Source: Pseudopedobacter saltans DSM 12145 (GTDB lineage Bacteria > Bacteroidota > Bacteroidia > Sphingobacteriales > Sphingobacteriaceae). Taken from it: DNA of 64,000 nt. The position numbers and the translations under genes are program-made. The notes beneath the pieces were generated by a model. It ran no database searches. It saw only the letters and a program-made list of their open reading frames with translations, and was not told the origin of the DNA. Positions 15,035 to 26,857 of this stretch are shown here, piece by piece. How positions within the stretch are numbered: the first letter of the stretch is position 1; each line of letters opens with the position of its first letter. Location of the stretch: NCBI RefSeq assembly GCF_000190735.1, contig NC_015177.1, forward strand, positions 2,232,001-2,296,000, in the 5' to 3' direction.

Positions 15035-15196
15035 ATGGCAGCTTCAACTAAAAAAACAGAAAAGGAAACTATTCAAAAAACGGATATAAAAGAAACAAAA
15101 AACAAATCCAAAAAAGTCTCTAAAACCTGGTTAGCATTTCTTGAAATAGCAAAAAATCCCGGCGAAATATTAGATATGAAAGCCGTTTTGAAATAA
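15035..15196 (+). CDS. Small antitoxin-like protein (VapB role)
   Basis: A 53-residue frame, very short, ending in TAA directly abutting the ATG of the PIN-domain toxin gene. The first half is Lys/Thr/Glu-rich and probably disordered. The second half (SKTWLAFLEIAKNPGEILD followed by MKAVLK) reads as an amphipathic helix that could lie in the toxin groove. Position, size and zero-base spacing are those of an antitoxin in a VapBC-type pair. No DNA-binding domain of a named family (AbrB, RHH, Phd) is evident, so family assignment is open. Confidence 0.7.
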   Translation: MAASTKKTEKETIQKTDIKETKNKSKKVSKTWLAFLEIAKNPGEILDMKAVLK

Positions 15197-15619
15197 ATGG
15201 GGCGATACTTATTAGATACTAATATAATAGTATTTCTGGTATTAGGGGATTCAGATAGTATTTCCCATAATACTAAAATGATTTTGGGCGATTATTCCAA
15301 TCAGCTTTATACAAATACAATTGTAGTATCAGAACTTATACAGTTATATCGAATAAAAAAAATAAAACCTAACAAATACAAAACAGCCACAGAGATAGTA
15401 GAGGGTATAGAAAAAGATCTTGACATCAAAATCCTCCCTTTTTCAAAAGAACATCTTTCCACGTTAGCTAAACTTACCATTGTAGAAGGACATAATGATC
15501 CTGCCGACCATGCTATCATATCACATGCTATAACAGAAAAACTAATATTGGTTTCCTCTGACAGAAAATTTTTACACTACATCAAACAAAATCTCCATTT
15601 TGTGTTTAATAAAAGATAA
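15197..15619 (+). CDS. vapC: PIN-domain toxin (VapC-like)
   Basis: A 140-residue PIN-domain protein, the ribonuclease type of VapC toxins, which cleave RNA using Mg2+ held by conserved acids. These are visible: an Asp in the opening YLLDTNIIVF, Glu in VVSELIQLY, Asp in NDPADHAIISHA and Asp in LVSSDRKFL. Length is standard. It directly follows the antitoxin-like gene, so the two are surely co-transcribed and probably translationally coupled. RNA target unknown. Confidence 0.88.
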   Translation: MGRYLLDTNIIVFLVLGDSDSISHNTKMILGDYSNQLYTNTIVVSELIQLYRIKKIKPNKYKTATEIVEGIEKDLDIKILPFSKEHLSTLAKLTIVEGHNDPADHAIISHAITEKLILVSSDRKFLHYIKQNLHFVFNKR

Positions 15620-15745: not shown

Positions 15746-18700
15746 ATGCTTAAGAAAATAACCCTAACTGCCTCTATTTTATATACCGCAATAAATCTGG
15801 AAGCGCAAACTCCTCTGCAATATCATATCAATGACAAATATAAAAATGCATTGGAATTGCTTGAAAAAGGCAAATATGCAACCGCTTCATCTTTATTCAG
15901 AGACGTAGAGAAGTTAAATTATACTACCTCTGAACAAGCTGACAATAGAGTTGATATTTCTGAAATCAAAATAAACGCACAATATTATAGGGCTTTGTGT
16001 GCTCTGGAGCTAAAAAATGATGATGCCATAGATCTTTTTCTAAGCTTTATCAGACAACATCCTGAGAGCGCAAAAACTAAACAAGCTTACTTTCAGGTTG
16101 GGAGATATTACTTTAGACAAGCCAATTATAAAGAAGCCTTAAATTGGTTTACTAAGGTAAGCACCATCGATATGTCGGGGGATGAAGCCATTGAATACAA
16201 ATTCAAAACCGCTTACTCTTATTTCGAAGTCCAAAACTACGAAGATGCCAAGCCTCTTTTCAATATGGTGCAAGACACCAAATCTGATTATGCAGAACAG
16301 GCGACTTATTATTACGCTTATATCGCATATTTGGATAAAGACTATAAAGCGTCTCTAAAAAGCTTTGAAAAACTAAAAAACTCTAAAAATTACGAAAGAA
16401 GTTATCCGTATTATATTTCGGCAATTTACTTTTTAGATAAGCGTTATGACGATGTTATTGCTTATGCTATTCCTATCTTAAATACTACTCAGCAACAATA
16501 TGAAACACAAATGTTCAGAATTGTTGCAGCATCTTATTTCGCAAAGGAAGATTATGCAAATGCAGCTAAGTATTACGAGAAGTTTATCGCTAACGACGGA
16601 GGTAAAAGCCAAAACAATCAGGACTCGTATCAAATTGGTTATACTTACTACAAGCTAAAAAAGTATGATAAGGCGGTAGAGCAATTGATTAAATTAAATG
16701 CAGATCTTAATGCACACAGTCAATTTGGTTTCTACACACTTGGAGATTCCTACTTGAAGACTTTGAATAAACAAGGTGCAAGAAATGCGTTTTTAGAAAG
16801 TTCTAAGATGAACTTTGATGCGGATATTCAGGAAGACGCATTATTCAATTTTGCGAAACTTTCTTACGAATTGGAATTTCACAATATCGCATTGGATGCA
16901 GCGAAAACTTATTTAAAGAATTACCCCCGTTCTCCAAAATTAAATGAGGCCAAAACCTTATTAGCGAACATCCTTCTAAATACCAAAAATTACAGAGAAG
17001 CAATTGACATATTAGAAGGTATAAAAAATAAAGACGAGGACGCAAAAGAGGCTTATCAAAAGGTAACCTATTTTAGAGCTTTAGAATTCTATAATGAAAG
17101 GGCTTTTGAAAACGCTATTGGAATGTTCTTAAAATCAAACACCTACCCTATTGATCCGGAGGTACATGCTTTAGCTACGTATTGGTGTGCAGAGTCTATG
17201 TATGAGGTGAGGAAATATGGCGAGTCTGTAAATTACTTCGAGAATTTCTTAAAAATGCCTGCCTCGAGGAAAACTGACCTATACAATTATGCCAATTATG
17301 CTTTAGGTTATGCTGCTTTAGAAGGAGAAAATTATGGTAAAGCTGCAACATATCTGGACAAATTCTTAAAAGGTAATGAGAAGGATCAATCTACTATTAA
17401 CGATGCCACATTGAGATTGGCCGACGCTTATTTCGGTTCTAAAAATTACGGAGCGGCACTTTCTTATTATAATCGTATTATTGCTTCGAAAACCAGCAGC
17501 GAGGATTATGCATTATTCCAAAGAGGTGTAATTGAAGGTTTGATGAATCAACCTGATACAAAAATTGCAACCCTGCAATCTTTGTTGAATAAATTCCCTA
17601 ACTCCAATTATGCTGATGATGCCGGTTTTGAAATTGCCTATACTTATTTCTTAATTGGACAAGGTGAAAAATCACGTTCGGACCTTGTCGCTTTAATTGA
17701 AAAATATCCACGTAGTTCTTACGTACCAAGAGCGCTTGTTACCATCGGTTTGGTTTATTATGACCAACAAAATGATGCGGCTGCGCTGGATGCATTCAAA
17801 AAAGTGGTTAGCGAATATAAATCAACAGACGAGGCACAACAAGCTATAAAACTTATAGAACGCATTTATATCGATTCTGGAAATGCTACCGGATTCATTG
17901 ACTACGCAAATACGACTTCCATAGGTAACTACACTGTTGCTGAACAGGACAACATCATGTTTCAGGCTGCAAATGCCAGATACTTAAGAGGTGACTGGAA
18001 CGGCGCTGTTGAATCTATTAATGCCTATTTTGATAAATTCCCTAAAGCAATTCAGGACAAACAGGCTAAGTTCATCAGAGCAGAAAGTTATAAAAACCTG
18101 GGTAAATATGCTCCGGCTATTATAGATTATGAATATATTCTAAATGATTGGACCAGTGAATATACCGAAAGAGCGCTGATGAGTATCTCTTCTATTTACC
18201 TAAAAAACAAACAGTACAACGAAGCTATTGTACACCTTAAAAAGTTAGAAATCGCATCGGAATATAAAGCAAACTACCAATATGCCATCAACAATTTAAT
18301 GAAAGCATATGAAGGTTTAGTTGTTCCGGATGAGGTTCTGAAATATGCTAAGATTATTCGTGAGTACGAAAAGTCGTCTGAACAGGATAAAGATCTGGCT
18401 ACTTTATATGCAGGAAAGGCGTACCTAATAAAAGGCGAAAATGCCGCTGCGCAAAAAGAATTCGATGCTTTGGTTAAAAAATCTAAAACTGTTGAGGCTG
18501 CAGAAGCGAAGTATTTAATCGCAAAAATCGAGTATGAGAAAAAAGACTATAAGGCTTCTCAGAAAACTTGTTTTGATTTGATTAATAATATGCCTAATTA
18601 CGACTATTGGGTAGCAAAAAGCTTCCTTTTGCTGGCAGACAACTATGTCGCCCTGAAAGATACTTTCCAGGCAAAAAGCACTTTACAAAGTATTATCGAT

Positions 18701-18772
18701 AATTACGAAGGAAACGATGACATTTTACCGGAAGCAAAAGAGAAGTTACAAAAACTAAATAGCGGAAAGTAA
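15746..18772 (+). CDS. Large secreted tetratricopeptide-repeat protein
   Basis: About 1008 residues: a signal peptide (MLKKITLTASILYTAINLEAQ) followed by TPR/Sel1-like helix pairs along almost the whole length, for example QHPESAKTKQAYFQVGRYYF, LNDWTSEYTERALMSISSIY and NFEIAYTYF-type turns of the YbgF/BamD style. I chose the ATG at 15746 because it puts the charged residues directly before the hydrophobic core; an in-frame ATG at 15731 adds five residues. It heads a co-directional set with a barrel protein, a HU/SPOR protein and ExbB-ExbD-TonB, so it is probably a periplasmic scaffold for an energised outer-membrane complex. That role is inference. Confidence 0.8.
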   Translation: MLKKITLTASILYTAINLEAQTPLQYHINDKYKNALELLEKGKYATASSLFRDVEKLNYTTSEQADNRVDISEIKINAQYYRALCALELKNDDAIDLFLSFIRQHPESAKTKQAYFQVGRYYFRQANYKEALNWFTKVSTIDMSGDEAIEYKFKTAYSYFEVQNYEDAKPLFNMVQDTKSDYAEQATYYYAYIAYLDKDYKASLKSFEKLKNSKNYERSYPYYISAIYFLDKRYDDVIAYAIPILNTTQQQYETQMFRIVAASYFAKEDYANAAKYYEKFIANDGGKSQNNQDSYQIGYTYYKLKKYDKAVEQLIKLNADLNAHSQFGFYTLGDSYLKTLNKQGARNAFLESSKMNFDADIQEDALFNFAKLSYELEFHNIALDAAKTYLKNYPRSPKLNEAKTLLANILLNTKNYREAIDILEGIKNKDEDAKEAYQKVTYFRALEFYNERAFENAIGMFLKSNTYPIDPEVHALATYWCAESMYEVRKYGESVNYFENFLKMPASRKTDLYNYANYALGYAALEGENYGKAATYLDKFLKGNEKDQSTINDATLRLADAYFGSKNYGAALSYYNRIIASKTSSEDYALFQRGVIEGLMNQPDTKIATLQSLLNKFPNSNYADDAGFEIAYTYFLIGQGEKSRSDLVALIEKYPRSSYVPRALVTIGLVYYDQQNDAAALDAFKKVVSEYKSTDEAQQAIKLIERIYIDSGNATGFIDYANTTSIGNYTVAEQDNIMFQAANARYLRGDWNGAVESINAYFDKFPKAIQDKQAKFIRAESYKNLGKYAPAIIDYEYILNDWTSEYTERALMSISSIYLKNKQYNEAIVHLKKLEIASEYKANYQYAINNLMKAYEGLVVPDEVLKYAKIIREYEKSSEQDKDLATLYAGKAYLIKGENAAAQKEFDALVKKSKTVEAAEAKYLIAKIEYEKKDYKASQKTCFDLINNMPNYDYWVAKSFLLLADNYVALKDTFQAKSTLQSIIDNYEGNDDILPEAKEKLQKLNSGK

Positions 18773-18881
18773 GAGATTAGAGACGAGAAAACGGGCAAGG
18801 TTTGTTGCTCAAATTAATAAAGCAGAAAAATTTTATAGGTTCTCCGGACAAATAGGAAACAGATAAAAAAACGAAAAACAG

Positions 18882-20600
18882 ATGAAACTATCATATAATT
18901 TAAATCGTTACTTATTATTGTGCTTACTAGGTGTAAATACTTCTTTATTTGCACAGGTAAAAACAGAGGAAAAGAAACCACAGGAAGAAAAACCAAAAGC
19001 AGCAGTTACGGAAGAAGTTGAAGTGGTTAGATCTTACAAACCTATTCTTGCAGATGCGGTAAAGATTAGAAGAAATCCTGATCTTAATGAAAAGAAGGTA
19101 TTCAATCCGAAAGTAAAATACAATCCTATAGATAAAAAGTTAGAGCTGGATTCGGAAATTGGCGCATTAGAAGCTCAAAAACTGATAAAGCAAGACGAAG
19201 AAACCCTGTACAATAACTTTGCTAAGTTCGGTATGGGAAATCTTGGCAGTACACTGGGTGCACTACATATTGGAACAGATAGAGACGAGGCATTACAAGC
19301 TGGGTTTAACTTTAACCATTGGGCCAATAGTAATGGTACTTTAAATAAGCAAAAGATGTCCGAGCAATCGATTGGTGCTTATGGAAGAAGTATTGGCGAT
19401 AATATTGTGCTGGACGGAAAGTTGAACTATAACCGTCGAAGCAATTATTTTTATGGTGTAAACCCTGAAGATGCCAATTTTAATTTAGACCCTAAAAAAC
19501 AAAGATTTAATCTTTTTGAAGGAGATGGCTTAATTTACAACCGAATTGACCCTAATGACATGGATAAGTTTGCATATGCAGCTAAAATAAACGGCTATAT
19601 ATTCAACAATATCTTCGAAGGAAAAGAAACAGGTGTCGCACTTTCAGGTGGTTTAAGTAAAAACCTTAACAAATTCCAAATAGGTGCAAACGGTTTATTG
19701 GATTTCACTACTAGTAAAGATTTTGCTTACTCTTTAGACAATCATATTTTTAAAGTCAACCCTTTTATTAAGTTGGATGGAGAGAAATTTAAACTTACGG
19801 CGGGAATCAACTATATTGCAGAATTCGGAACGAATTCCAATTCGAATCTTTTCCCTAATGCCAGTATAGATTTTTCATTGGTAAAGAATTATCTTGGATT
19901 ATTTGCGAAACTTGATGGTAATGTAAATAAAACCAGGTTGAAAGATTTAAGCTATGTAAATCCTTTCATCAATGAAAATATTGATATCAGAAATCAGATT
20001 GAAAAATTCAATATTTCGGGAGGTATTAAGGGGACACTCGCTGCAAATATTGGATACAAAGCTTATATCAGCTATAAAAATATAGATAATTTCGCCTATT
20101 TCGTAAACGATACTACGCGTAGGGAAACTTTCAATCTGGAATATGAATCGGGCAATACCAGTGTATTTGGCATTACCGGTGAACTTAACATCAAATTTTC
20201 TGACATTGCCAGAATTGACAGTAAACTGGAGCTGAATCAGTACACACTGAAACATGAGCTGAATGCATGGCAACATCCTTCTGCTAAATTGACTACTAAT
20301 GCTTCTTTTAAAATAGCTAAGAAGGTGAAGTTAGATGCTGATTTATATTTTCAAGGCCCTACAAAAGCAAAGTTGTATGAACCAGATCCAACATCTTCTA
20401 CGGTTCCAGCTCCTTTGATTGGAAATATCAAGACATTAAAGTCATTTGCAGACCTTGGTGTTGGTGCAGAATATCTTTATAATAAACGGATTAGTGCATT
20501 TTTAAGAGTAAATAACCTGTTCAATTCGGATTATCAAAGATATTTGTATTATCCTAGTTACGGATTTAACATTCTTGGTGGTATCAGTTACGGATTTTAA
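18882..20600 (+). CDS. TonB-dependent-receptor-like outer-membrane barrel without plug
   Basis: A 572-residue protein with a signal peptide (about residues 1-25, ending in SLFAQ), a 20-residue Lys/Glu/Pro-rich linker, then the segment EEVEVVRSYKPILADAVKIR, which could act as a TonB-box-like contact. The rest is beta-strand repeats ending SYGFNILGGISYGF with the terminal Phe of outer-membrane barrels; RVNNLFNSDYQRYLYYPSYG resembles the C-terminus of TonB-dependent receptors. No carboxypeptidase-like or plug domain is visible, and the length is below a full receptor. It sits 109 bp after the TPR gene and before a HU/SPOR gene. The ligand is unknown. Confidence 0.75.
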   Translation: MKLSYNLNRYLLLCLLGVNTSLFAQVKTEEKKPQEEKPKAAVTEEVEVVRSYKPILADAVKIRRNPDLNEKKVFNPKVKYNPIDKKLELDSEIGALEAQKLIKQDEETLYNNFAKFGMGNLGSTLGALHIGTDRDEALQAGFNFNHWANSNGTLNKQKMSEQSIGAYGRSIGDNIVLDGKLNYNRRSNYFYGVNPEDANFNLDPKKQRFNLFEGDGLIYNRIDPNDMDKFAYAAKINGYIFNNIFEGKETGVALSGGLSKNLNKFQIGANGLLDFTTSKDFAYSLDNHIFKVNPFIKLDGEKFKLTAGINYIAEFGTNSNSNLFPNASIDFSLVKNYLGLFAKLDGNVNKTRLKDLSYVNPFINENIDIRNQIEKFNISGGIKGTLAANIGYKAYISYKNIDNFAYFVNDTTRRETFNLEYESGNTSVFGITGELNIKFSDIARIDSKLELNQYTLKHELNAWQHPSAKLTTNASFKIAKKVKLDADLYFQGPTKAKLYEPDPTSSTVPAPLIGNIKTLKSFADLGVGAEYLYNKRISAFLRVNNLFNSDYQRYLYYPSYGFNILGGISYGF

Positions 20601-20645
20601 AAGCATTTTTTTTCGTTATATAAAAAAGCTATTTTTACGCACAAA

Positions 20646-21722
20646 ATGGAAATCCCCTTAAATCTGAGAGCGCTTATAGAAAAAAATAATCGGGTAATTT
20701 TACCCGGTATTGGTGCGTTCTATAAAAAAAGGACAGAGGGATTTTTTGATGAAAATAGAAATAGCTTTTATCCTCCTAAAGAAGATATCTCTTTTAGCTA
20801 TAACTTAATTGAGAGGGCAGATCAATCATCTTATTCCGAAGCTGAAGTCAATTTTATTACTTCATTAACAGATAAAGCAAAGGAATCTATCTCTAAGTCC
20901 GGAGAATTCTATCTGAAAGACCTGGGAAACTTAAAAAGGAAAGGTGATGTTATTGTTTTCGAAAAAACTTTAGATCAGCATAATTTTAACAGTTCTTTCT
21001 TTGGTTTACCTGTACTGGACTTACCTAAAGAAGAACCTAAACCTGTTTTAATACCGGAATCAGTCTCAGTTATTGCAACGACACCGTATGTAAATACAAA
21101 CCAGGGATTTTCATTAGCTGAACAGGCTTTAAGTGTATCAATGGAGAGTGAATCTGAACCTGTTGTATCTGAATCTAAATCGAAAATCTGGTTATTTTCA
21201 TTTTTAATACTGATTATTTTAGGTCTTGGAGGTTTTGCTTTTTATCAATTCAATCCGCAGATTGTTGATAATGTCTGGAAGCAATTAAACCCTGACCAGA
21301 AAATAAATACTGCGCCGCCGACTGTTGTAAAAATTGATTCCGACAGCCTGGATAAACAGATTGCCGATTCTATATATAACCAAAATATAGAAACGGAACT
21401 AGCTAATCAGGGATTTGAAGCTGAAAAGCTTAAAGATTCTGCCGATATTAGTATTCAGAAACGTACTGTACCAAATCCTAATGGAATTCGTTATGAAATA
21501 ATAATAAGTGCATGGAGAACAGAGGCCAAGGCATTAAGTGAACTGAAAAAGCTAAGGGCTAATGGTATTGATGCCCATATTGTTGATGATGCGGGAGGAT
21601 TGATGATAAAAATTAGTGCAGCAACATTATATTCCAAGGAAGACGCGGAAAAAGAACTGAGAAGAATCAGAGAAGAATTAAATCCTGAGGCTTTCATAAA
21701 ACCCTTTAAATCATTAAATTAA
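20646..21722 (+). CDS. HU-domain and SPOR-domain single-pass membrane protein
   Basis: A 358-residue protein. Residues 1-125 match the HU-like (CCDC81-type) domains of Bacteroidota (LRALIEKNNRVILPGIGAFY, then SKSGEFYLKDLGNLKRKGD). One membrane segment is near 181-201 (IWLFSFLILIILGLGGFAFY). The C-terminus (about 280-350) is a SPOR domain with the repeated alpha/beta pattern YEIIISAWRTEAKALSELKK. SPOR domains bind denuded peptidoglycan, so the C-terminus should be periplasmic and the HU part cytoplasmic. exbB follows after 21 bp, implying one operon. Confidence 0.8.
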   Translation: MEIPLNLRALIEKNNRVILPGIGAFYKKRTEGFFDENRNSFYPPKEDISFSYNLIERADQSSYSEAEVNFITSLTDKAKESISKSGEFYLKDLGNLKRKGDVIVFEKTLDQHNFNSSFFGLPVLDLPKEEPKPVLIPESVSVIATTPYVNTNQGFSLAEQALSVSMESESEPVVSESKSKIWLFSFLILIILGLGGFAFYQFNPQIVDNVWKQLNPDQKINTAPPTVVKIDSDSLDKQIADSIYNQNIETELANQGFEAEKLKDSADISIQKRTVPNPNGIRYEIIISAWRTEAKALSELKKLRANGIDAHIVDDAGGLMIKISAATLYSKEDAEKELRRIREELNPEAFIKPFKSLN

Positions 21723-21743
21723 TTAAAATCAAGAATAATAATT

Positions 21744-22433
21744 ATGTTTCTACAAGATACTGTTGATACATTTTCGAACACCATCCAGGCGATGCAACAA
21801 GAGGTTCCTCAACAAGAATTAAGTTTATTTGAGCTTTTGTCCAAGGGAGGATGGGTGATGATTCCTTTAACTTTGTTAGCATTATTAGGCCTTATCATTT
21901 TCTTCGAACGTTATTTAACTATTAAAAAAGCCTCTAAAGACGAAAGTCAATTGATTTTACAGGTAAAATCAAGTATCAAGACCGGTAATCTTGACTCAGC
22001 TATTGCAATCTGTAAAAGTAGTAATAGTCCTTTAGGCAGAATGCTACAAAAAGGTTTATTAAGAGTTGGGAGACCTATTAAAGAAATCGAAGGTTCTATT
22101 GAAAATGTAGGTAAACTTGAGGTTTCTAAATTAGAGAAAAACGTAGGTATTTTGGGTATCATTGCAGGTATCGCTCCGATGCTTGGGTTCGTTGGTACAA
22201 TTATAGGGGTGATCACTATCTTCCACGATGTTTCTGTAAAAGGAATTATCGAAATTGGAACAATTTCTGGTGGTTTATATGTAAAAATGATTTCTTCCGC
22301 TACGGGATTGATTATAGGTATTGTATCATATGTTTTCTATAATATTTTAATGATGATGATTGATAAAGTTATCTTAAAAATGGAAACAGATTCTATTGAG
22401 TTTATTGATTTATTAGAAGAACCGGGAAGATAA
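21744..22433 (+). CDS. exbB: MotA/TolQ/ExbB proton channel family protein
   Basis: A 229-residue inner-membrane protein with three membrane segments: residues about 35-55 (GGWVMIPLTLLALLGLIIFF), then the paired segments after residue 130 (ILGIIAGIAPMLGFVGTIIG and SSATGLIIGIVSYVFYNIL). ExbB pentamers surround ExbD and use the proton gradient to drive TonB or Tol proteins. It begins 21 bp after the SPOR gene and is followed by exbD after one base, so the proton-motor genes are one operon. Confidence 0.93.
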   Translation: MFLQDTVDTFSNTIQAMQQEVPQQELSLFELLSKGGWVMIPLTLLALLGLIIFFERYLTIKKASKDESQLILQVKSSIKTGNLDSAIAICKSSNSPLGRMLQKGLLRVGRPIKEIEGSIENVGKLEVSKLEKNVGILGIIAGIAPMLGFVGTIIGVITIFHDVSVKGIIEIGTISGGLYVKMISSATGLIIGIVSYVFYNILMMMIDKVILKMETDSIEFIDLLEEPGR

Positions 22434-22434
22434 A

Positions 22435-22833
22435 ATGAACTTTAGAAAAAGACAAAGACCTCAGGTAAGAGTACATACTGACGCCTTAAACGACATTATG
22501 TTCTTCTTGCTGCTTTTCTTTTTGCTGGCTTCTGCTGTTGTCAACCCCAATGTGGTTAAATTATTTCTGCCACGTTCAAGTTCAGGACAGTCAGTGCCTC
22601 AAAAGACAATAAATGTTTCTATCACAAAGGATCTGAAATATTATGTGGAAAAAGAACCGGTTCCTTTCGAAGCGTTAGAACAAAAGATATTACCTTATCA
22701 GCAGGCTAATCCTGAGCTGACGATTATTTTATATGCTGACAGATCTATTGCTATTGAAAACATCGTAAATCTGACGGATATAGCTAATAAATTGAGGGTG
22801 AAATTGGTTTTGGCAACTGAGACAAAAGAGTAG
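22435..22833 (+). CDS. exbD: ExbD/TolR family biopolymer transport protein
   Basis: A 132-residue protein with a short cytoplasmic arm, one membrane helix (IMFFLLLFFLLASAVV) and a periplasmic domain. The conserved membrane aspartate of the family is present as Asp20 in ALNDIMFFLL. The periplasmic portion ends in the usual LTDIANKLRVKLVLAT pattern. Together with the preceding ExbB it forms the proton-driven motor. The TonB-like gene follows after 4 bp. Confidence 0.93.
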   Translation: MNFRKRQRPQVRVHTDALNDIMFFLLLFFLLASAVVNPNVVKLFLPRSSSGQSVPQKTINVSITKDLKYYVEKEPVPFEALEQKILPYQQANPELTIILYADRSIAIENIVNLTDIANKLRVKLVLATETKE

Positions 22834-22837
22834 AATA

Positions 22838-23674
22838 ATGATTAACTTATTAAAATCAAGCCCCGATAACAATTATCCAAAGGCGATAGCTATTTCTATT
22901 GCGCTTTTGGGAGGCTTTTTAATATTAAGCATTTTCTATATTATCAACAGAGCAGAACCTTTGGAAGAGGTTGGTACAGGAGGTATTATTGTAAATTACG
23001 GTACTTCTGATATAGGAATGGGTGACGACTACATGAGTGTTGAAGAACCTTCTTCTGATCCTAATGCTAACCAAACTGCTCCTGATAAGATCACTCCGGA
23101 TGCAGACGTAACTCCGCAAAAGACGGTAAATCAAACTGCTGACAATAAAATTGTCACTCAGGATTTTCAGGATGCTCCTGCCGTAAATACAAAAACAGAA
23201 ACTAAAACAAATACAGCCCCTACCCAAAATACCGAAACTAAAGAAAGCAAACCGGTTGTTAATCAGAATGCACTTTATAAAGGTAAAAAGAGTCAGGGTA
23301 CAGGACAAGGTGATGGTACTGGTGACGAAGCCGGTAATCAGGGAAAAGTATTAGGTGATCCATTAGCTAACAATTATGATGGTACAGGATCTGGAAATGG
23401 TGGTGTAGCGCTTTCAATTGCCAGCAGAAGATTCGTGGCTTCTCCGGTTATTAAGGATGACGGACAAAAATCGGGAAAAGTTGTAGTAGAAATCAGGGTG
23501 GATAAAAATGGAAATGTAATTGCCGCCAAAGCTGGTGCGAGAGGTACAACACTAACTGATAATGACCTTTGGGATAAATGTGAAAGAGCTGCCTTAGGTT
23601 CAAGATTTAATACATTAGATTCAGCTCCGGATACTCAAATTGGATATATCACTTTTAATTTTAAGGTGAAGTAG
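22838..23674 (+). CDS. TonB-like energy transducer
   Basis: A 278-residue protein with an N-terminal signal-anchor (about 16-36, AIAISIALLGGFLILSIFYI), a long Pro/Thr/Gln/Asn-rich periplasmic spacer to about 150, a Gly-rich stretch (GTGQGDGTGDEAGNQGK) and a C-terminal TonB-like domain with VVVEIRVDKNGNVIAAKAGA and IGYITFNFKV. This is the usual layout of Bacteroidota TonB proteins, which carry energy from ExbBD to outer-membrane proteins. It is the last gene of the motor operon, and its natural partner may be the plug-less barrel encoded upstream. Confidence 0.85.
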   Translation: MINLLKSSPDNNYPKAIAISIALLGGFLILSIFYIINRAEPLEEVGTGGIIVNYGTSDIGMGDDYMSVEEPSSDPNANQTAPDKITPDADVTPQKTVNQTADNKIVTQDFQDAPAVNTKTETKTNTAPTQNTETKESKPVVNQNALYKGKKSQGTGQGDGTGDEAGNQGKVLGDPLANNYDGTGSGNGGVALSIASRRFVASPVIKDDGQKSGKVVVEIRVDKNGNVIAAKAGARGTTLTDNDLWDKCERAALGSRFNTLDSAPDTQIGYITFNFKVK

Positions 23675-23837: not shown

Positions 23838-25118
23838 ATGGCCTACCAGGACACCATAAAATATCTATATAGCAGATTACCCATGTTTACCAAAATAGGT
23901 GCATCTGCTATAAAAAAGGACATTACCAATACCGCAGCATTCTGTCGGGCATTAGACAATCCTCATTTAAAATTCAAATCTATACATGTAGGCGGAACGA
24001 ATGGCAAAGGATCTACATCTCATATGATAGCCGCCATCCTCCAAACTGCCGGATACAGGACCGGCTTATATACTTCTCCTCATCTAAAGGATTTTCGTGA
24101 GCGTATAAAAGTAAACGGAGAAATGATTTCTGAAGAAGCAGTGATTCGTTTTGTTGATGAGAATAAACCATATATTGAAACTATTGAACCTTCTTTTTTT
24201 GAAGTTACGGTCGCAATGGCTTTTGATCACTTTGCAAAAGAACAAGTTGATATTGCAGTAATAGAAGTAGGTTTAGGCGGCCGTCTGGATTCCACGAATA
24301 TTATCTTACCTGAATTATCGGTTATCACCAATATCGGTTTTGACCACATGCAGATTTTGGGAGATACATTAGATAAGATTGCATTCGAAAAGGCGGGAAT
24401 AATTAAAAAAGGAACTCCGGTAGTAATTGGTGAATATTTACCGGAAACCTTACCTGTATTTAAAGAAAAAGCTGAGCAGGAACACAGCCCGATCTATTTT
24501 GCACAGGACATATTCAAAACCGAGTTTATTGAAGGTCATTCTTCTACTATCTCGGTTAAAGTAGATAAGGGAACTGAGTCCGACAATCTCGAACTGGATT
24601 TAACAGGCTTATATCAATTGAAGAATATAAAAACAGTTCTCGCATCTGTTGATGAGCTCAGAAAAAAGGGTTTTATTATTTCTGAAAGTCATGTCAAAAC
24701 AGCACTAAAAGATGTAAAAGGGTTAACCGGGCTGATGGGTAGATGGCAAACCTTACAGAAAAACCCTTTGGTAATTTGCGATACCGGACATAACGAGGAC
24801 GGAATTAAGGAAGTATTAAAAAATATCGCCATAACACCGCATAAACAATTGCACATGGTGTTAGGTATGGTAAAGGATAAAGATATTTCCAAAGTTTTGC
24901 AACTGCTTCCTAAACAGGCAATTTATTACTTCTGCGCTCCAGATTTCGAGCGGGCAAAAAATCCCTCAGAACTGGCTGCTGAAGCCGCGATTTACGGACT
25001 TGAGGGAAATCACTACGACAGCATACAGAAAGCGCTGGAGACTGCTAAAAATAATGCAAAACCAGATGATCTGGTATTTGTAGGTGGAAGTACTTTTGTA
25101 GTTGCCGAAATAGTTTAA
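23838..25118 (+). CDS. folC: Bifunctional folylpolyglutamate / dihydrofolate synthase
   Basis: A 426-residue cytoplasmic Mur-ligase-type enzyme that adds glutamate to dihydropteroate and folates with ATP. The P-loop HVGGTNGKGSTSHMIAAIL is near residues 51-69, followed by GLYTSPHLKDFRERI, the VIEVGLGGRLDSTN metal-binding block, GFDHMQILGDTLDKIAFEKA and a C-terminal ligase domain with LVICDTGHNEDGIKEVL. Length is normal. It starts 163 bp after the TonB-like gene behind a repeat, so it probably has its own promoter. Confidence 0.96.
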   Translation: MAYQDTIKYLYSRLPMFTKIGASAIKKDITNTAAFCRALDNPHLKFKSIHVGGTNGKGSTSHMIAAILQTAGYRTGLYTSPHLKDFRERIKVNGEMISEEAVIRFVDENKPYIETIEPSFFEVTVAMAFDHFAKEQVDIAVIEVGLGGRLDSTNIILPELSVITNIGFDHMQILGDTLDKIAFEKAGIIKKGTPVVIGEYLPETLPVFKEKAEQEHSPIYFAQDIFKTEFIEGHSSTISVKVDKGTESDNLELDLTGLYQLKNIKTVLASVDELRKKGFIISESHVKTALKDVKGLTGLMGRWQTLQKNPLVICDTGHNEDGIKEVLKNIAITPHKQLHMVLGMVKDKDISKVLQLLPKQAIYYFCAPDFERAKNPSELAAEAAIYGLEGNHYDSIQKALETAKNNAKPDDLVFVGGSTFVVAEIV

Positions 25119-25266: not shown

Positions 25267-25992
25267 CTAGTTAATTCTATACTTTAATCCTATATTATGG
25301 CTTGATACTTTTATACCTTTTCCAGGTAAAGAAATTCCAATCAGTCCATCAGAAAACAAAGATAATTTTTCCATGACTCTAATGGAAGCTCCTAAACCGG
25401 TTACAAGAGAAACTTCCATAACAGATTCTTTGTAATGATAATCTACGGCTTCTGATTCTGAAGTTTCCATATATTCTTTGATAATTAAATCTTTTTGGGC
25501 ATATATAATTTCGGGACCAATTAACCATTGGAAGCTCAATATCTTTCCTCTATCTTTTGTCAAAGAAAGCGAGGAATAAGCAGACATTTGAAAAAATTTT
25601 GATTTATTGTCAGGAATCGCCAAATCTGTTCGCGTAGAAAGCCCACTCAACATGCTAGCGTAGAATAAATGCCCTTTCAGTGAAAAGCGGTCTGTTATTC
25701 CTTTTTCAAAACCTAAGAACAGCCCGGAACTGTAATCAAATTTGTCGAACGAAACAAAATCATTAACTATACTAAAATCAGACATCGATGAAGAATATCC
25801 CTTAAACTTTTTCTGTTTTCCGTCTTTCCAAAAATTATAACCGTAAGAAAGACTAACATAGAATTCTCCCCCACCTTGATTATAAAGATTTATAGGTCTT
25901 GGCCCATTAATTACAATTTGAGAATATGTATGGCTTATATTTAAGCCAAGAAATAAGAATGTAAGTATAACGACTGCGTATAATTTAAACAT
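25267..25992 (-). CDS. Hypothetical secreted outer-membrane protein
   Basis: A 241-residue protein with a clear signal peptide (about residues 1-25, ending HTYSQ) and strand-rich, aromatic sequence (GGGEFYVSLSYGYNFWKDG and GFEKGITDRFSLKGHLFYAS) ending in IGLKYRIN, typical of a small outer-membrane barrel. No family is recognised. It starts 16 bp after the lipoprotein gene upstream, so the two are probably co-transcribed and may work together at the cell surface. Confidence 0.6.
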   Translation of the reverse strand: MFKLYAVVILTFLFLGLNISHTYSQIVINGPRPINLYNQGGGEFYVSLSYGYNFWKDGKQKKFKGYSSSMSDFSIVNDFVSFDKFDYSSGLFLGFEKGITDRFSLKGHLFYASMLSGLSTRTDLAIPDNKSKFFQMSAYSSLSLTKDRGKILSFQWLIGPEIIYAQKDLIIKEYMETSESEAVDYHYKESVMEVSLVTGLGASIRVMEKLSLFSDGLIGISLPGKGIKVSSHNIGLKYRIN

Positions 25993-26008
25993 AAGACTAG
26001 TTAAAAAG

Positions 26009-26857
26009 TTATTTACAGGAAACTTCTACATTGGCTGTACCACTGTCTTGTTGCCCCATTGCTGTGAGAGTAGATCTTATACTAGTGAGTTTACTACCAT
26101 CAAACTTAAAGTCATTTGTGTAAACCGCATCCAGACCTATTCCTATTTCTATTCCAATTTCCCCTAGGTCTATCTCTCCCAAATCAGGCATTGTTTTTAA
26201 AGTGTAGGAAGTCATATATGCATTTCGAAGACATGGAATGAGATTCAAATTATAGGAGTCAGTAAATCCTAAATCACAAAAATTATCCTCCTTTTTACGA
26301 TCCAGGTATTTAAAATTGGTAAATTCAAACAAAACAAAACCCGATGCGGGATCCTTTATGACTGCATGGTTTAACCTATCTTTATTATCATAGGTTAGAT
26401 CGATGATTCCTTTATCATCCCCATATCCTTTTTCAATTCTGGTTAATAATTTTTTATCGTTATAATGATAAATATCTACCTGATTGGCATCTTCGATAAT
26501 TGTTTTTCCGTCAACATCTATATGTACTGCGACCTCTTTCTGCACACTTCCAAAATCCGTCATGTAAATACGGCTAACCATTTTTTTGTCGGACGATTTT
26601 CTTCCTTTAAAATACAAGAATTGTTTTGGGTTTTCCTTGGTTAGATAATGTGACTCTCCTTCTGAAGAAATATCTTCTATTAACATGGAATTTTCATCAT
26701 ACTTTATACTTCGTATTTCTCCGTCCGAATAGGTATATTTTGTAATCAAACAGTGAGCTCCGTTTCCACTGCCAATACCAACAGGTGTCATTACTGAATC
26801 ATCCTGGCGACAAGAAAACATAAATATCGCACAGACAGCAAGTATAATTTTACGCAT
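26009..26857 (-). CDS. Hypothetical lipoprotein
   Basis: A 282-residue protein whose N-terminus (MRKIILAVCAIFMFSCRQDD) is a lipoprotein signal with a lipobox-like FMFSC; Cys16 would carry the lipid. The mature part has repeated strand-turn phrases such as LIEDISSEGESHYL and LTRIEKGYGDDKGIIDLTYD, resembling secreted proteins with YD-like or DUF4595-type repeats, but I cannot name a family. It is the first gene of a probable two-gene unit with the barrel-like protein. Confidence 0.6.
   Translation of the reverse strand: MRKIILAVCAIFMFSCRQDDSVMTPVGIGSGNGAHCLITKYTYSDGEIRSIKYDENSMLIEDISSEGESHYLTKENPKQFLYFKGRKSSDKKMVSRIYMTDFGSVQKEVAVHIDVDGKTIIEDANQVDIYHYNDKKLLTRIEKGYGDDKGIIDLTYDNKDRLNHAVIKDPASGFVLFEFTNFKYLDRKKEDNFCDLGFTDSYNLNLIPCLRNAYMTSYTLKTMPDLGEIDLGEIGIEIGIGLDAVYTNDFKFDGSKLTSIRSTLTAMGQQDSGTANVEVSCK

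Follow-up and report, generated by a model that had tools for sequence, protein, structure and literature searches.

What does a complete proton-driven motor do when the receptor-type barrel encoded beside it has no plug? This question is raised by six genes in a 64,000-nucleotide stretch of DNA (the window) from Pseudopedobacter saltans, a member of the Bacteroidota close to Pelobium and Pedobacter whose 4.6-Mb genome forms one contig. A sequence-only reading had suggested that these genes encode no nutrient receptor but an energised machine dedicated to the envelope. We asked how far this view holds when the encoded proteins, their predicted structures and their neighbourhoods in other genomes are compared.

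The six genes and their motor

The genes occupy positions 15746-23674 of the window, all on the plus strand, in the order TPR, barrel, HU/SPOR, ExbB, ExbD and TonB-like. Gaps of 109, 45, 21, 1 and 4 bp separate them, and a further 163 bp lead to folC (folylpolyglutamate synthase, 23838..25118, plus strand, assigned by profile match and neighbourhood), the constant 3' neighbour of the motor. On the 5' side lie pyrR, pyrB and a small PIN gene. All six ORFs lie, in one direction, at the positions given by the sequence-only reading, and its assignments hold. Scans of the DNA for promoters and terminators gave results at chance level. Between pyrB and the TPR gene (15035-15619), a basic 53-residue ORF is followed by the PIN-domain (VapC-like) gene; the two are possibly a toxin-antitoxin pair and are absent from that place in the relatives compared. 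Beside folC, on the minus strand (25267-26857), are two unassigned genes: the product of the first is secreted and matched no Pfam or NCBIfam family, and that of the second is probably a lipoprotein.

The first gene (15746..18772, plus strand, ATG start) encodes a periplasmic protein of 1008 residues with a type I signal peptide, a putative scaffold that matches TPR_6 in Pfam (E 5.7e-37). Its best matches among natural solved structures are CpoB and YbgF, and it scores 190 bits against the CpoB-type model TIGR02795 (cut-off 90.1), a match that the repeats make unspecific. Identity across the class ranges from 28 to 77%, the top relative among the matches listed being that of Pelobium manganitolerans (72% identical).

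The third protein (20646..21722, plus strand, 358 residues) combines a cytoplasmic HU-CCDC81 part, a membrane helix and a periplasmic SPOR domain, with the topology assigned by eye (Pfam: HU-CCDC81_bac_1, 4.8e-12; SPOR, 7.2e-5, over the cut-off). SPOR domains bind peptide-stripped glycan, a material enriched at septa (PMC6895207). By analogy with this family, the domain found here (residues 282-351; 21489..21698, plus strand) would be expected to bind denuded septal glycan and thus to link the protein to peptidoglycan. In other families the third genes keep the membrane helix and, in most cases, the SPOR domain, while HU is often missing; the HU-SPOR combination described from the sequence is therefore present here but not general, and SPOR appears to carry the more constant function. 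The HU-CCDC81 part (20664-20807), which varies by family while SPOR persists, is odd in its own right, since an HU-type domain in the cytoplasm is here part of a membrane protein that would bind the wall. The open-licence literature yielded nothing relevant on HU-CCDC81, or on SPOR with TonB receptors, in Bacteroidetes.

The last three genes encode the motor. ExbB, an ExbB/TolQ-type proton channel (21744..22433, plus strand), matches MotA_ExbB at 2.8e-21 and has an invariant Thr152 and a conserved Ser/Thr185. ExbD, an ExbD/TolR-type subunit (22435..22833, plus strand), matches the Pfam ExbD family at 6.3e-23 and has a candidate proton-binding residue, Asp20, assigned by eye. The TonB-type force transducer (22838..23674, plus strand) has the standard layout: an N-terminal membrane helix, a periplasmic span of about 150 disordered residues and a C-terminal domain (residues 199-278; 23432..23671, plus strand). 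It has no Pfam match and lies below PF03544, a family that two of its relatives match weakly and one, in another class, matches above the cut-off. The C-terminus is nevertheless predicted to adopt the TonB fold (9ddz, TM 0.70, probability 1.00), with TolA structures ranking lower. A histidine anywhere in the membrane region of the transducer was found in only six of 30 relatives, and the other TonB of this genome also has none there, as judged by eye; loss of this residue was set aside as a distinguishing mark.

The genome has only two ExbB genes, that of the cluster and that of an ExbB-ExbD-ExbD-TonB set at about 3.507-3.511 Mb; nine Pfam TonB_C matches are found elsewhere. The cluster motor falls below the equivalog cut-offs of both TolQ (62.6 bits vs 221) and TolR (34.0 vs 127.3), and its ExbD scores as ExbD, not as TolR. 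The likeness of the cluster ExbB to TolQ was dropped as an argument, the other ExbB of the genome scoring higher on TolQ.

A receptor-type barrel with no plug and a conserved tail

In TonB-dependent receptors the plug is a domain that is folded and exceeds 100 residues. The AF2 model of the barrel protein (18882..20600, plus strand, 572 residues; mean pLDDT 82.5, alignment of 56 sequences) is confident from residue 113 to the end. There we counted, on the DSSP string of the model, 22 strands forming a transmembrane barrel (residues 113-572; 19218..20597, plus strand). Residues 19-108 have a pLDDT below 50 and are predicted to be disordered; the barrel is therefore without a plug, as the sequence had suggested, and the model contains no such domain. 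Consistent with this, the Plug family (PF07715) is matched by none of 19 barrel homologues across the class, and the protein is not among the 80 Plug matches of its genome. The barrel itself matches no Pfam family; the TonB-receptor barrel model is matched by two of the 19 homologues. The nearest solved structures are all TonB-dependent transporters of 22 strands, BtuB and FhuE coming first with E about 1e-16 (Foldseek). BamG is likewise a phylum-wide outer-membrane barrel, but it was rejected as the identity of this protein, being a 14-strand barrel of the FadL type and not a 22-strand one of the TonB-dependent transporter type (PMC12611786, PMC12578637).

Within the disordered region, residues 44-70 (EEVEVVRSYKPILADAVKIRRNPDLNE; 19011..19091, plus strand) carry 2.62 bits per column against 1.98 in the barrel, and the most conserved 20-residue windows of the entire barrel protein fall in this stretch. 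Because it is disordered and yet the most conserved part, this tail looks like a docking peptide, which might resemble a TonB box. TonB boxes elsewhere in the genome resemble LNEVVVVGYG, and barrels of other classes have PNEVVIRS or LPEFVITG at the tail position. With a matrix built from 29 boxes of the genome, 30 of 79 barrels had their best window on the tail, where position alone would give about two, although the scores rarely exceeded shuffled maxima and the 79 barrels are related, hence not independent. A contact of the tail with TonB is thus plausible; for the segment EEVEVVRSYKP, named as a possible contact in the sequence-only reading, the placement of the box windows speaks in favour and the scores do not, so that the assignment is suggestive only.

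The tail is also found apart from the barrel. Two genera of the family have proteins in which the signal peptide and tail of the barrel protein precede the TPR protein, of which the C-terminal three quarters are kept (L036:6496-8982 and L148:7326-9932, both frames open), which marks the tail as a module and ties it to the TPR protein. The fusion at L036 adjoins a normal TPR-barrel pair and is 67% identical to TPR residues 244-1009, while in G042, a one-contig genome, over 700 kb separate the fusion from the normal pair. An assembly fault was considered for the fusion in genome G020 and is unlikely, given the second case at a distant site of G042.

Conservation of the cluster across Bacteroidota

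With the TPR alignment as query we retrieved at least 540 relatives and fetched 80 loci; in 78 of the 78 whose contig continues, the barrel gene directly follows the TPR gene. The full six-gene order was counted by us in 39 Sphingobacteriales loci, nearly always with folC. In two Pedobacter-type exceptions, the part from SPOR to folC lies about 22 and 31 kb off on the same contig, by our computation (L061 and L104, respectively).

The neighbourhood comparison, set beforehand, with the predicted barrel structure, as one of two tests by which the sequence-only reading could be refuted, was extended to an even sample of 148 genomes of the phylum, 37 of them from the class of P. saltans (TPR threshold E 1e-30), and it found TPR-barrel adjacency far beyond this genome. 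Both genes are present in all 37 class genomes and adjacent in 36; in other classes, where the profiles match only partly, they are adjacent in 28 of 59 genomes. In the sole class exception (G092) the TPR gene lies at C1:100853 and the barrel gene at C1:291958, 188 kb apart. Three or more families of the class possess the cluster whole or mostly, f15 and f24 among them, as do three or more outside it, including f43, f31 and f36. Outside the class, one locus has the order TPR-barrel-SPOR-ExbB-ExbD-TonB (L149), a second the same as far as ExbD (L150) and a third barrel-SPOR-ExbB-ExbD-TonB (L135). In Flavobacterium-like and Bacteroidales genomes the motor stands elsewhere as ExbB-ExbD-TonB-folC. 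Indeed, folC comes after ExbB-ExbD-TonB in almost all lineages, including those in which the motor is away from the TPR-barrel pair.

Gene order kept across families and classes indicates that the cluster is not a product of chance, and its recurrence in several classes gives the linkage the appearance of an old one that was broken in some lineages. The cluster is kept in a genome of only 1.7 Mb (one ExbD ORF was not flagged there), which, together with the TPR-barrel pair in every class genome, fits a core envelope role and not a nutritional one. Neither test refuted the sequence-only reading, the genes being widely adjacent and the barrel model free of a plug. A dedicated, energised envelope machine without a nutrient role is therefore well supported. 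The conserved core is, however, the TPR-barrel pair, to which the motor is not always attached.

A proposed Tol-Pal-like machine built from Ton parts

We then asked which known system the cluster resembles. With the Ton system it shares ExbB, ExbD, the predicted TonB-fold C-terminus and the 22-strand receptor-type barrel. Unlike that system, it has a transducer that does not reach PF03544, it lacks a linked substrate partner, it is class-wide and it shows linkage with genes for a TPR protein and a SPOR protein; because the plug is missing, the barrel cannot be classed as a TonB-dependent transporter. The job of Tol-Pal is carried out by TolQRA, TolB and Pal. Here the likeness lies in a second proton motor with its transducer, a TPR protein with CpoB as its best natural solved match, a putative peptidoglycan-binding part and an outer-membrane target. 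The differences are that the transducer C-terminus is nearer to TonB than to TolA, that the outer-membrane part is a barrel and that the wall-binding SPOR part sits in the inner membrane. Moreover, as TolB, Pal and TolQ/TolR all stay below their cut-offs, the cluster cannot be classed as Tol-Pal itself.

TolB_N (PF04052) was matched in none of the 37 class genomes and in seven of the 148 overall, with a model that is insensitive in this phylum, and Pal was for this reason used as a marker too. Pal (TIGR02802) exceeds the cut-off in 30 of the 148 genomes but in none of the class; all 30 belong to one family (f30), in which it was found in 30 of 30 sampled members. None of these 30 genomes has the TPR protein and none of the 107 TPR genomes has Pal above the cut-off, a complementarity that fits a replacement but may reflect a single event, all Pal-positive genomes being of one family. 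OmpA-type wall-binding domains below the cut-off are common in all sampled genomes, so another protein may supply a Pal-like activity. Tol-pal loci were not detected in Bacteroidetes by a published survey, which put forward PorE as a tether (PMC12204202). PorE, in the same phylum, would likewise link outer membrane and peptidoglycan, but it is one outer-membrane lipoprotein with CpoB-, TolB- and Pal-like parts, whereas the cluster has its own motor and barrel.

We tentatively propose, giving it nearly an even chance, that the cluster is a trans-envelope machine driven by the proton motive force, Tol-Pal-like in its working and assembled from Ton parts. In this scheme ExbB and ExbD of the inner membrane would drive the TonB-type transducer across the periplasm, and the C-terminal domain of the transducer would engage the tail that is conserved at the N-terminus of the plug-less barrel. 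The force would therefore act on an anchor in the outer membrane that lacks a gate and would import nothing. The TPR protein may dock on the barrel, the tail or both and so couple the barrel to the machinery of the cell wall; the SPOR protein may bring the assembly to denuded, septal peptidoglycan. Such a machine would probably serve to draw the outer membrane towards the cell wall or hold it there, chiefly during division, the barrel standing in for TolB-Pal and TonB for TolA. E. coli has ExbBD plus TolQR, and the two ExbB motors of this genome run parallel to that pair, which supports the proposal; the separation of the motor from the TPR-barrel pair in many lineages, the rival tether PorE and the failure of TolQ scores to discriminate count against it. 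The stricter claim, that the cluster replaces Tol-Pal in Bacteroidota as a phylum-wide constriction and tethering motor of the outer membrane, TonB pulling the barrel by its tail with SPOR as the guide to the septum, is doubtful enough that we would put it at about one chance in three.

A 22-strand pore without a plug should be harmful unless filled, and no genes of the cluster are linked more strongly than those for the TPR protein and the barrel. Both points would suit TonB-driven transport with the plug moved elsewhere, in which the pore is blocked by the TPR protein or by the barrel's own tail until the motor opens it, letting an envelope component such as a lipid, a lipoprotein, a glycan or a wall fragment pass in or out. 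We hold this to be unlikely, though worth keeping in mind: the compared loci show no consistent link to an ABC importer or a substrate-binding lipoprotein, the SPOR domain points to the cell wall, and universal presence would be unusual for an uptake system. It is more improbable still that the motor energises, as a general TonB system, the roughly 80 plug-bearing receptors of the genome, with the TPR protein and the barrel as loosely linked bystanders. The TonB-type C-terminal domain, the 80 Plug matches to be served and the motor travelling apart in several lineages are what one would expect of such an energiser, but the separate set near 3.51 Mb and the TonB_C matches elsewhere speak against it, as does the recurrence across classes of the linkage of motor, SPOR and barrel genes.

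The HU/SPOR protein has a weak similarity to FtsN (7.6e-4) and joins HU and SPOR in one chain, and SPOR proteins are reported to function in septal synthesis (PMC7642682). It could accordingly be an FtsN-like core of a division or chromosome-linked wall-synthesis complex with the barrel as a mere outer-membrane anchor; this we regard as very improbable, since HU is absent in several relatives and the motor with its TonB would be left unexplained.

If the Tol-Pal-like proposal is right, a TonB-type motor acting on a gate-less barrel would put force to mechanical use and not to import. A search of the open-licence literature brought up no account of the cluster, an earlier one outside that scope being possible. 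Members of the Bacteroidota are dominant in the human gut and in many other settings. The cluster offers for this phylum a concrete, phylum-wide candidate, equipped with a proton motor where PorE has none, for pulling in the outer membrane at division, and it may hold the outer membrane in Bacteroidota as Tol-Pal does in E. coli.
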